Of a DNA stretch of 64,000 nt, positions 41,069 to 63,900 are shown in pieces. The notes beneath the pieces are model-generated. The model ran no database searches and had not been told where the DNA came from. It worked only from the letters and a program-made list of their open reading frames with translations. Position numbers and translations under genes: made by a program. Source of the stretch: Diadophis punctatus similis (lineage: Eukaryota > Chordata > Lepidosauria > Squamata > Dipsadidae); assembly GCA_023053685.1 (NCBI GenBank), contig JALIGW010000016.1, forward strand, positions 9,065,001-9,129,000. Direction: 5' to 3'. Position 1 is the stretch's first letter. The number at the start of each line of letters is the position of its first letter.

Positions 41069-44000
41069 ATGGACCCCCGCTTCAGCTCTGCAGTGTTCCT
41101 GATCCTTTCCTGCTGGCTTTGGAATGCAGAATGTCGAAATCATAACCAGATACTCAAAGTGGAAAATGGAGGAGAGTATGGAAGTTGGGGGGAAATAGCC
41201 ATGTGTCCACAAGGCCATGCAAATGGATTCTCCTTGAAGGTAAAAGTCTCCTGGTCTTACCCTGTTCAGACCTCATGAGGCTAAAGCACTCTCCCAGTCA
41301 TCTCTCTAAAGTAGTCTTAACCCATTTTGGGGGCTGTTAAAACTTCCGTTAGGCTTGGGAAAGCCAAATCATGGAACTTGAGGTGATAGTACTAAAAATG
41401 GGGAGGGAAGTTAAGGAAAAGAGAAGTTTTTGAGCGAAAGTCAGATGAAGCATCTTGCTACAAATATCTATAGCAATAGCACTTAGCAATAGCACTTAGA
41501 CTTCTATACCGCTTCATAGTGCTTTACAGCCCTCTCTAAGCGGTTTACAGAGTTCAGCATATTGCCCCCATCAATCTGGGTCCTCATTTTACCTCAGAAG
41601 GATGGAAGGCTGAGTCAACCTTGAGCCTGGTGAGATTTGAACAGCTGAACTGCTGAACTAGCAGTCACTGAAGTAGGTTGCAGTGCTGCTTTTAACCACT
41701 GCGCCACCTCGGCTCCTCGATATAGATCAGAGGTAGGCCTGATGGAAGCAGCTATGTTCCATTTATTCATTTTTTGTACCTAATTCAGACGTAATGGCTG
41801 CAAGCTGTCTAAAGACTATTCAAGTTGCCCTAATTTATTGAACACTACTCAGTGCTTCCTTATTAATTGTCAGAGTGTGCACAGCGTGACTACTATTTTG
41901 AGACAGGAGCAAAATACCGTACACAGAAGTTTGTCTTACAAACAGTGGTTTATTGAACGCTACTCAGTGCTTCCTTATTAGTGTTGCTTTTTCATTGTCC
42001 TATAGAAGTAACATTAAAAAGTAGCTCTCAATATTTTATATTGTAATGCCATTCATTTGGCCAATATCATTCTCTTATGTTTGGTCAGTCCACCCTAGCC
42101 AAGATTCTCTGCAGTTGTCTGCAAGATTCTCTGCAGTAACTTTGTCCTTAAGGCGATTTTGCTTCATTCATTGATTCATTGATTGATTGATTGATTGATT
42201 GATTGATTGATTGATTCATTCATTCATTCATTCATTCATTCATTCATTCATTTATGCAGGATGGATAACTCATAATCTTAAGCTTCTTTCATTGTAGCCT
42301 CCAGAGATTTGGTGGCAAACTGAGAGGCCCAATTTTTGAGAATAATATTAAGATTACTGAGTAATAGACTCTTAATTACCCTTTCTATTGCTTCACATCC
42401 GTTTATTATTTTACGGCAGCAGAAAATAGAAGAATTTAAGAAAGTTTAATAATGTATTAGCTTTGATCCCCATTTCAGTTGGTTTTTAAAGGGTGTGCTC
42501 AAGTGGAGAAAATAAACATGGACACTTCATGTGAGCTCTTTTTAATAAAGGATAAAACTGTTATGAAAAATAATAATAGTTTTTGTTATTTCCCAAAGGA
42601 CATCACTACACTTCATCGCATTTTAAACAAAAGAAAATCAACTCAGATCATGACTTGCTGTTGGGCATTGAAGTATGGATGTCTATGGAGATTCTCAGTC
42701 ATCCAGGTCATGGTTGTCCCAAAGGTGCTTTTTTCAAGAGGCAACTGGACTTTTTGGTTATTCTTTGAAGACGTTTCACTTCTCATCCAGAAAGCTTCTT
42801 CAGCTCCTTCAGAGAAGCGAAACGTCTTCAAAGAAAAACCAGAAAGTCCAGTTGCCTCTTGAAAAAAGCATCTTTGGGAGATTGACGTATGAAGTAATCC
42901 AATTCAGATATGATGCTTCATTGCAGGTTTGGGGCCTCCAACTCCCTGCTTTAAAGAAATAGTGTGGGGTTGGGTATGTCTTGACAAGTCAGTAGAAAGT
43001 TTAGTTTCTCCCACTGAGTTTGCTTACAAAGGTCCTGTTAAATTCGAGACCACAGAATCAGTTTCATCATAAATAGCACTATAGCACTTTACTTATATAC
43101 CGCTTCATAGTGCTTTACAGCCCTCTCTAAGCGGTTTACAGAGTTCAGCATATTGCCCCCAACAATCTGGGTCCTCATTTTACCGACCTCGGAAGGATGG
43201 AAGGCTGAGTCAACCTTGAGCCTAGTGAGATTTGAACAGCTGAACTGCTGAACTAGCAGTCAGCCTGCAGTCGCAGCATTTATCCACTGCACCACTTCAG
43301 CTCATAATAAAGATATATAAGCTCATATAAAGATAGTCCTTAATGTATGACTGGTCGTTTAAGGAGCATTCAAAGTTATGAGGGATCTCAAAAAATCTCA
43401 TTAGGTGAATCCAGGTTTCACTTTGAAACTTGGATCCCTGGTGATCACATGACCACATTTATGGCCATTTGGAGCATCTTGCCATCATGTGATCTTGCTT
43501 TACAACATTTTTGCCAGACATTGGCAATTATTTTCAGTTTTGAGAAAAAAATGCCCCAGATTGAAGAGTGGTTTTGCTTAATGGCTGCAGCATCCATTTA
43601 AAGCTTGCTGCAAAAGAGGTATTAAAATCAGGGGCAGTCATGTGATGACCTGCTTAATGTCCAACTTATGACCAATTGCGGGCTCAATTACAGTCAGTCG
43701 AGGATTACATGTGGTGTTTTTTTTAACTTTTGCATTAGGTTCAGCCGCCTCAAGGTATATTTAAAGATGACTCTTCTGTTACTGGCATCCGTATTCACTG
43801 TGAAGATGGTACTACTCAAGAGTCTACTACTTCAGAGTGAGTATCTTTCGGCTTGCACTCTGTTTCACTTTGTAGGGTTGGCAGAAATATGTTATGCTCA
43901 GGGGTGGGTTCTAACTTGGCTTCCTCCCATGCCACGAAAACATGGCTTCTACCAGGGGTGAAATCCTCCCGGTTCGCCCGGGCCAGTCCTTCGGCGTATA

Positions 44001-60970: not shown

Positions 60971-63900
60971 ATGGACCCCCGCTTCAGCTCTGCAGTGTTC
61001 CTGATCCTTTCCTGCTGGCTTTGGAATGCAGAATGTCGAAGGTTTAACCAGATACTGAAAGTGCCAAATGGAGGAAAGGCTGGAAAATGGGGGGAAATAT
61101 CCATGTGTGGAAAAGGCTATGCAAATGGATTCTCCTTGAAGGTAAAAGTCTCCTGGTCTTACCCTGTTTAGACCTCATGAGGCTAAAGCACTCTCCCAGT
61201 CATCTCTCAAAAGTAGTCTTAACCCATTTTGGGGGCTGTTAAAACTTCCGTTAGGCTTGGGAAAGTGAAATCATGGAACTTGAGGTGATAGTACTAAAAA
61301 TGGGGAGGGAAGTTAAGGAAAAAAGAAGTTTTTGAGTGAAAGTCAGATGAAGCATCTTGCTACAAATATCTAGATCAGAGGTAGGCCTGATGGAAGCAGC
61401 TATGTTCCATTTATTCATTTTTTTGTACCTAATTCAGACGTAATGGCTGCAAGCAGTCTAAAGACTATTCAAGATGCCCTAATTTATTGAATGCTACTCA
61501 GCGCTATCTTATTAATTGTCAGAGTGTGCACAGTGTGACTACTATTTTGAGACAACCCAGGAGCAAAATACAGAAAACAGAGGTTTGTCTTACAAACAGT
61601 GGTTTATATACAAGACTTCTATATACATACATACACGTGGTAGGCACGTACGTAAAAAATAATCAATCTTTACTTCTACACAGAAGTATTTCATCGTATT
61701 TTAAACAAAAGAAAATCACCTCAGATCATGGCTTGGTATTGGGCAGATGGGAAAGGGCATTAAAAATGCCTGGCAATTTCCTTGCCTCCCCTTCTCCCCA
61801 AAAGAGACCCCAATTCCTAGTTACATTGAAGTATGGATGTCTACGGAGATTCTCAGTCATCCAAGTCATGGTTGTCCCAAAGGTGCTTTTTTCAAGAGGC
61901 AACTGGACTTTCTGGTTATTCTTTGAAGACGTTTCACTTCTCATCCAGAAAGCTTCTTCAGCTTCTTCAGAGAAGCGAAATGCTTCAAAGAAAAACCAGA
62001 AAGTCCAGTTGCCTCTTGAAAAAAGCACCGTTGGGAGATTGACGTATGAAGTAATCCAATTCAGATATGATGCTTCATTGCAGGTTTGGGGCCTCCAACT
62101 CCCTGCTTCAAAGAAATAGTGTGGGGTTGGGTATGTCTTGACAAGTCAGTAGAAAGTTTAGTTTCTCCCACTGAGTTTGCTTACAAAGGTCCTGTTAAAT
62201 TCGAGACCACAGAATCAGTTTCATCATAAAGATAGTCCTTAATGTACGACTGGTCGTTTAGTGCACAGTCAAAGTTATGAGGGATCTCAAAAAATCTCAT
62301 TAGGTGAATCCAGGTTTTGCTTTGAAACTTGGATCCCTGGTGATCACATGACCACATTTATGGCCATTTGGAGCATCTTGCCATCACGTGATCTTGCTTT
62401 GCAACATTTTTTCCAGAAATTGGCCTTTATTTTCAATTTCCAGAAAAAAATGCCCCAGATTGAAGAGTTGTTTTGCTTAATGGCTGCAGCAATTTTGCAG
62501 AATGCTGCAAAAGAGGTAATAAAATCAGGTGCAGTCATGTGATGACCTGCTTAATGACCAACTTAAAACCAATAGCAAGCTCAATTTATTTATTTATGTA
62601 TTTATTAATGAGACTTATATACCACCTCACAGTGCAAGCACTATCTAAGCGGTTTACACCAGTAAGCAATGTTGCCCCCAACAATCTGGGTCCTCATTTT
62701 ACCTACCTCGGAAGGATGGAAGGATTACAGTCAGTTGAGGATTACATGCGGTCTTGTTTTTTTCTTTTTACTTTTGCATTAGGTTCAGCAACCTCAAGGT
62801 AAATTTATAGATGACTTAGCTCTTACTGGCATCCGTATTCACTGTGAAAACGGTTATACTCAAGAGTCTTCTACTGCAGAGTGAGTATCTTTCGGCTTGG
62901 ACTCTGTTTCACTTTGTAGGGTTGGCAGAAATATGTTATGCTCAGGGGTGGGTTCTAACTTACCTCGCCACCAGTTTGCTTCCTCCTGCACCATGAAAAC
63001 ATGGCTTCTATAGATGCGCAGAAGCAAACAAGAGCTTCTGCGCATGCACAGAAGCCAAAAACAAGATGGTGGCGCCTATGGCATCGCCTTGAGAGCCGGT
63101 TTGGGGGCCTGGCCCGCCGGCAATCGCTCCCGGTTAGGCGAGCGAGGGGAAATTCCCGCTACCAGTTCTATAGAACCGGTCCAAACCGTGAGCAATCCAC
63201 CTCTGGTTATGCTACATGAACTGATGTGAGAAAAATGGGATATTTTTTAGTCATTGCAGTTTTTCGTCTGTGCTGATAATATGAATCCAAAGAAAATAAG
63301 ACAAAAAAAGCAAGAATCACCGCCTTCATCAACCTCCAATGTTAAACTGCTTGTCAGAAATGAAGCTGAATTTCAGGAGCAAAAAGGCCACCGAATTTGT
63401 TCCTGGTCCACAAGAACAGCTAGTTACACAGAAAGTTAAGCTGCAGATTTATTTATGTGCAATCATACATGTGAAATCATACAGTGTTGCAGGACACTAA
63501 ATGTTTTATGCAGTTTTACGTTATTATGCATAAAACTTCAGTATGATATACGATAAACGCTTGAGGGAGCTAGATATGTCTAGCCTAATGAAGAGAAGGA
63601 TTAGGGGACACATAATAAATGTCTTCCAGTATTGAGGGGTGGTCACAGAAAAGAGGGGATTGACTTATTCTCCAAAGCATCACAGGGCAGGACAATGGGT
63701 GGAAGCTTGTTAAAGAAATATCCAACTTAGAACTAAGGAGAAATGTTCTGGTTGTGAGAACAATTAATCAATGGAATAGCTTGCCTGCCAGAGTTGTCCA
63801 TCACTGGATGATGAAAAATAGACTGGATAACCATTTGAGTGGTATAAAGTTCTTGTTTTTGAGCACGAGGGTGGGGGGTTGGACTAGAAGCTCTCTGAGG

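Follow-up and report, generated by a model that had tools for sequence, protein, structure and literature searches.

Genes 3 and 4 in a ten-gene array

The window analysed here, a stretch of 64,000 nucleotides from Diadophis punctatus similis (G000:C68:9065001-9129000), carries four VMO1-like genes (1, 2, 3, and 4), which are members F, G, H, and I of one tandem array of ten genes, A-J, on contig C68, each with three exons and intact. A profile search of the 1.78-Gb assembly returned 12 VOMI matches, ten of them in this cluster and the remaining two singly on C386 and C325, and all ten spliced array genes had open frames and GT-AG introns. The present study concerns genes 3 and 4, whose mature exons have diverged about three times as far as the noncoding DNA around them, very probably owing to recurrent diversifying selection, after tandem duplication, on these two genes and their array relatives.

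Comparison of the two genes (hereafter H-I) revealed 74 differences in 504 mature coding positions (14.7%), distributed over exon 1 (17/102), exon 2 (14/98), and exon 3 (43/304), against 501 in 10,678 positions (4.7%) of the aligned noncoding DNA of the duplicated block, where the whole of intron 1 and intron 2 differed at 64 of 1,294 and 44 of 947 aligned sites, respectively. The densest contiguous 504 bp of aligned noncoding DNA held 49 differences, and resampled noncoding blocks reached 74 with a frequency of 1e-5. Replacement divergence was 17.1%, compared with a local noncoding divergence of 4.8% (Fisher p about 1e-16). A first-pass annotation of this DNA had reported such a contrast, and its counts were reproduced, namely no difference in the first 69 nt of exon 1, ten replaced residues and one synonymous codon (Leu29) in the rest of that exon, ten replaced residues and no changed codon that keeps its residue in exon 2, six differences in the first 231 bp of intron 1, and one in the first 80 bp of intron 2. 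Path averaging assigned 2.5 synonymous steps to multiply hit codons of exon 2. The five- to sixfold exon excess claimed there falls to about threefold against the whole noncoding DNA, the intron pieces quoted being the conserved ones. Exon 3 of gene 4, almost wholly beyond the window and set aside by that annotation for later inspection, proved equally divergent.

The identity of the signal-peptide codons (0/69) has a probability of 0.034 at the noncoding rate and is thus borderline unusual, and it is not array-wide, since these codons show 7-10% difference in the recent pairs C-F, B-D, and B-E. In addition, the second exon of gene 2 survives within the duplicated block as a dead copy, whose 93 aligned bp showed five substitutions on a count by eye, close to the noncoding rate, along with an 8-bp deletion.

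Coordinates of the array genes and duplication features, in window numbering
Feature	Position	Strand	Remarks
Gene 1 (F)	3916..5837 (exons 3916-4095, 4388-4482, 5543-5837)	+	Recent partner is gene C, beyond the window
Gene 2 (G)	18402..24864 (exons 18402-18572, 22714-22814, 24570-24864)	+	Divergent member of the array
Gene 3 (H), exon 1	41069..41239	+	Codons 1-23 (41069-41137) same in gene 4
Gene 3 (H), exon 2	43739..43836	+	98 nt
Gene 3 (H), exon 3 with stop	45155..45458	+	304 nt
Gene 4 (I), exon 1	60971..61141	+	
Gene 4 (I), exon 2	62783..62880	+	
Gene 4 (I), start of exon 3	63991..64000	+	Runs on to 64297 (G000:C68:9128991-9129297); intact
Duplicated 3' splice site, gene 4 intron 2	63942..63990	+	34 nt between acceptors; frame kept by the downstream one
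Tandem duplication, first copy	22490..46293	+	19 collinear aligned blocks; holds gene 2 exons 2-3 and gene 3
Tandem duplication, second copy	46908..64000	+	Aligned beyond the window to 65130; holds gene 4
Relic of gene 2 exon 2, second duplication copy	47137..47229	+	Dead-exon control

Several further features of the array were observed. Use of the upstream acceptor of the duplicated 3' splice site in gene 4 would shift the frame, so that exon 3 could be mis-spliced. Genes F (3916-3930) and C (G000:C68:9016133) carry GTG at the position of the start ATG of the other A-F members, with an in-frame ATG nine bases upstream, and their start codon thus seems to have moved. An isolated exon-3-like fragment between genes C and D (G000:C68:9029002-9029067) is probably an array relic. 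Moreover, a minus-strand open frame of 762 codons lies between genes 3 and 4 (53348-55636), which we take to resemble a LINE-type reverse transcriptase.

Family, fold, and codon models

Genes 3 and 4 scored 149.8 and 150.4 bits against the Pfam VOMI profile (PF03762, cut-off 25), covering profile positions 2-167 of 167, and the sole close match by sequence in the PDB was 1VMO, chicken VMO-I. The same entry was the best fold match of the predicted structure of a snake relative, P0001 (template modelling score, TM, 0.80/0.92; predicted local distance difference test, pLDDT, 83), and this match, together with the repeat alignment in gene D, supports a beta-prism fold with three internal repeats. 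Among the matches listed (120 of 845 in one of the searches), protein relatives in many snakes bore a VMO1-like annotation. In a protein tree of 69 sequences (59 chosen from 169 relatives plus the ten array genes; 13 of 66 inner branches open), H and I were sisters (97/81), and their next relative came from Erythrolamprus reginae, a dipsadid (98/92). The tree bears out a snake as the source of the array, namely a colubroid and probably one near Dipsadidae. From these sequences the H-I duplication would appear younger than the split from E. reginae, unless a closer Erythrolamprus copy was missed. E. reginae also has a seven-sequence VMO1-like clade of its own (P0015, P0045, P0116, P0119, P0120, P0138, and P0139; 100/100), a separate recent expansion. 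End branches of H/I-type proteins measured 0.04 and 0.13 in Vipera and Crotalus (P0004 and P0006) versus 0.17-0.59 among colubrid and dipsadid sequences (P0001, P0002, P0003, and P0005), a contrast that hints at lineage-specific acceleration or hidden paralogy.

Codon analysis of mature H-I gave a replacement rate (dN) of 0.196 and a synonymous rate (dS) of 0.076, hence an omega (dN/dS) of 2.59 (p=0.0135 against an omega of 1). Two other recent and phylogenetically separate pairs behaved alike, with omega at 2.76 in C-F (p=0.0023) and 2.62 in D-E (p=0.018), and the likelihood-ratio tests (LRTs) of the three pairs combined to p=1.1e-4. Mature exons also diverged more than noncoding DNA in each of them (14.7 vs 4.8% in H-I, 18.4 vs 4.5% in C-F, and 11.4 vs 4.4% in D-E), so that all three are tandem copies with accelerated exons and omega above 1. 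More broadly, exon divergence exceeded noncoding divergence in nine of 11 usable pairs, barely so in B-D (11.3 vs 10.4%) and not in A-B and A-D; of the 14 pairs compared, G-H, G-I, and I-J were dropped with only 111-212 aligned noncoding bp, and D-E entered the comparison without its unaligned signal peptide and exon 1, B-E without its unaligned exon 2. Omega was above 1 in 14 of all 45 pairs, seven of these at p < 0.05, the pairs being overlapping and the p-values uncorrected, and ranged from 0.21 to 0.50, with high dS, where G, J, or H/I was paired with another gene. Gene J was slow in the protein tree too, so the fold by itself does not entail hyperdivergence.

Site models pointed the same way in the six genes A-F, that is, without genes 3 and 4. 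The LRT of M1a against M2a was 88.3, with 36% of sites at an omega of 5.7 and 34% at 0.14, and it was 75.2 over all ten genes, whereas 40 null simulations gave a maximum of 10.8 and exceeded 5.99 three times, with about two such cases expected. Separate LRTs for the three exons, each on its own tree, were all significant (18.2, 22.6, and 57.6). These codon models were run with purpose-written code, F3x4 frequencies, and naive empirical Bayes posteriors. The residues differing between H and I had a mean six-gene posterior of 0.60, compared with 0.27 elsewhere (p=1.1e-6), and the two genes differed at 17 of 33 high-posterior sites versus 27 of 131 others (p=6e-4). This concordance speaks against both a chance pattern and one single exchange of exons.

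The selected sites gather round the W-G-x-W...C-x-x-G segment and the stretch ahead of D-D-T, and across the three repeats their posteriors show a mean correlation r of 0.49 (permutation p=2e-4), a value that drops to 0.24 or less once the register is shifted by 1-39. For structural mapping, the predicted P0001 model, 73% identical to gene 3, served as proxy for genes 3 and 4. On this model, 29 of 32 six-gene sites (p=0.002), 22 of 22 ten-gene sites (p=1.6e-4), and 38 of 44 H-I replacements (p=0.003) lay outside the six long strands. Plain enrichment in loops over all strands was discarded as a description of the selected sites, only the avoidance of long strands being clear.

The first-pass annotation had named diversifying selection as one of two explanations, and it gains support from an omega above 1 both in H-I and in the separate recent pairs, the six-gene site models without genes 3 and 4, and the concordant sites. 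Genes 3 and 4 are intact sister copies that arose by tandem duplication within the array, and according to the proposed course of events, positive selection would have fixed amino-acid replacements repeatedly in both, their introns and flanks drifting near neutrally. In this secreted, lectin-like protein with its predicted beta-prism, selection would act on positions that recur from repeat to repeat and would spare the cysteines, tryptophans, and long core strands, giving a fixed scaffold with a diversifying glycan- or partner-binding surface.

Alternative explanations

Several observations weigh against diversifying selection. The omega test of H-I is modest when taken alone, and it falls short of p=0.05 in every exon considered singly. 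Neither of the oldest pairs, A-B and A-D, shows the exon excess, and their omega values are 0.86 and 0.93. The site models assume absence of recombination, and the long-strand contrast was chosen after the all-strand loop enrichment had come out weak (p=0.26 for six genes, 0.024 for ten, and 0.080 for H-I). Furthermore, synonymous divergence in the exons was 8.3% against 4.8% in noncoding DNA (p=0.079), and because it is somewhat the higher, mutation or age may account for some of the exon excess.

The last of these points suits exon exchange, whether by short-tract conversion or a switch of the ASSET type (accelerated segment switch in exons to alter targeting) into gene 3 or 4, or by conversion that homogenised the introns of older copies. 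So does the clumping of differences within codons, 22 of which carry two or more where 10 were expected, a clumping that multinucleotide events would likewise produce and that also counts against selection, and segment switching has a precedent in the three-finger toxin genes described in PMC2474615. Exchange would, however, bring in synonymous differences as well, yet dN is 2.6 times dS. Copy J does match gene 3, and not gene 4, at eight consecutive differing sites from exon 1 into exon 2, but this run crosses intron 1 and may be shared ancestral sequence. The longest match to gene 4 in the eight other cluster copies spans four consecutive sites of 76 differing ones, and the replacements are aligned and scattered, not a block replaced by unrelated sequence as in ASSET, with no gene 4 donor run of more than four sites. 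No copy was found closer to gene 4 than gene 3 is when exon 1 and exon 3 proteins were searched genome-wide and the best candidates scored, exon 2 not having been searched genome-wide. Derived residues fall on both genes, 10 on gene 3 and 17 on gene 4, with 20 unpolarised. Replacement by conversion, the second explanation in the first-pass annotation, is disfavoured by the missing donor run, the lack of a closer copy, and the derived residues on both sides, and exon exchange in any form appears improbable.

We regard as very improbable that relaxed constraint, an unusual exon mutation rate, or multinucleotide mutation produced the pattern without positive selection. The elevated synonymous divergence would fit such a process too, and among the 30 singly hit H-I codons, 25 changed by replacement and 5 synonymously, leaving little of the excess, which again weakens the case for selection. 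Relaxation, on the other hand, cannot push replacement past the neutral rate, as the replacement and noncoding figures above would require. Frames are intact in all ten genes, strong constraint holds at roughly one site in three, and the dead exon in the duplicated block stays near the noncoding rate. Multinucleotide mutation alone should clump differences in noncoding DNA as well, yet clusters of them are 6.8 times rarer there per base. The pseudogene pattern that the first-pass annotation had proposed looking for, with lesions and dN/dS near 1, was not seen, given the H-I omega and the intact frames, and intact frames and splice sites in all ten genes rule out a pseudogene. As for chimerism or error of the assembly in gene 3 or 4, judged on the assembled sequence, the array lies on one contig of 19.76 Mb with no N across 184 kb, the differences are spread over 19 collinear blocks, frames are intact, and other pairs show the same pattern, so that we give this explanation next to no credence.

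Function and comparison with known systems

With diversifying selection as the preferred explanation, the selected sites would presumably form a ligand-contacting surface, and the driver may be a changing partner, such as glycans of microbes or prey, or molecules on the surface of eggs or sperm. It is possible, and proposed here tentatively, that the array is a recognition repertoire in which a rigid three-fold prism bears a hypervariable surface at three symmetry-equivalent places, driven by an arms race; its arena would then be either an oral or venom secretion, facing glycans of prey or microbes, or the surfaces of egg and sperm. Several papers offer leads, though not tests, in the passages concerned: VMO1 transcripts cited from the Philodryas olfersii venom gland (PMC9363672), VMO-I tabled in a study of frog lip-gland secretion (PMC8613984), and a VMO1 homologue in a table of proteins from work on Ovophis venom (PMC8635378). 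A venom role of the array genes might be considered from such literature leads only. The main function of VMO1 is called uncertain in a passage of PMC9363672, and the array makes it testable through the expression and binding of its fast copies. Moreover, the array constitutes a natural experiment, in which ten copies come with introns and a dead exon as controls, the fold is solved, the class of selected sites is strong, and one member, J, is slow, and its comparison is helped by VMO1-like relatives in many snakes.

Chicken VMO1, described in passages of PMC9363672 as a beta-prism protein made in the oviduct, present in egg and semen, and binding GlcNAc hexasaccharides and heparin, with relatives in camel tears, shares the Pfam VOMI domain with the snake genes and is the best-matching fold of their relative. 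Unlike it, the snake genes form a tandem array of ten, and omega between their recent copies exceeds 1 over the gene as a whole. The computed net charge of the mature protein is about -4.0 in gene 3 (isoelectric point, pI, 5.4) and +1.9 in gene 4 (pI 8.1), and a pI of 10.0 is listed for chicken VMO1 in the same source. Fish VMO1 has likewise expanded in copy number and is named with ZP genes in a proposal on alkaline adaptation (PMC9957108), but this is another lineage with a proposed egg-chorion role, and the passages of that paper contain no exon-intron contrast or codon analysis.

Duplicates with similar introns and accelerated exons are an evolutionary mode known from snake venom families, as PMC2474615 and PMC2711939 describe. 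By title or abstract, no report of accelerated exons in snake VMO1 appeared among the matches listed from the open-licence PMC literature, subscription papers being outside this scope. The genes of three-finger toxins and other venom proteins in those two papers likewise have three exons, have been duplicated, and combine similar introns with exons that diverge. Unlike these and other genes of the ASSET type, the snake VMO1-like genes have another fold and carry scattered point replacements at recurrent sites, with no donor-like segment. If the array is indeed a recognition repertoire, it would parallel, with three-fold symmetry, the variable loops that three-finger toxins carry, and would do so in a family that owes its name to the egg coat.

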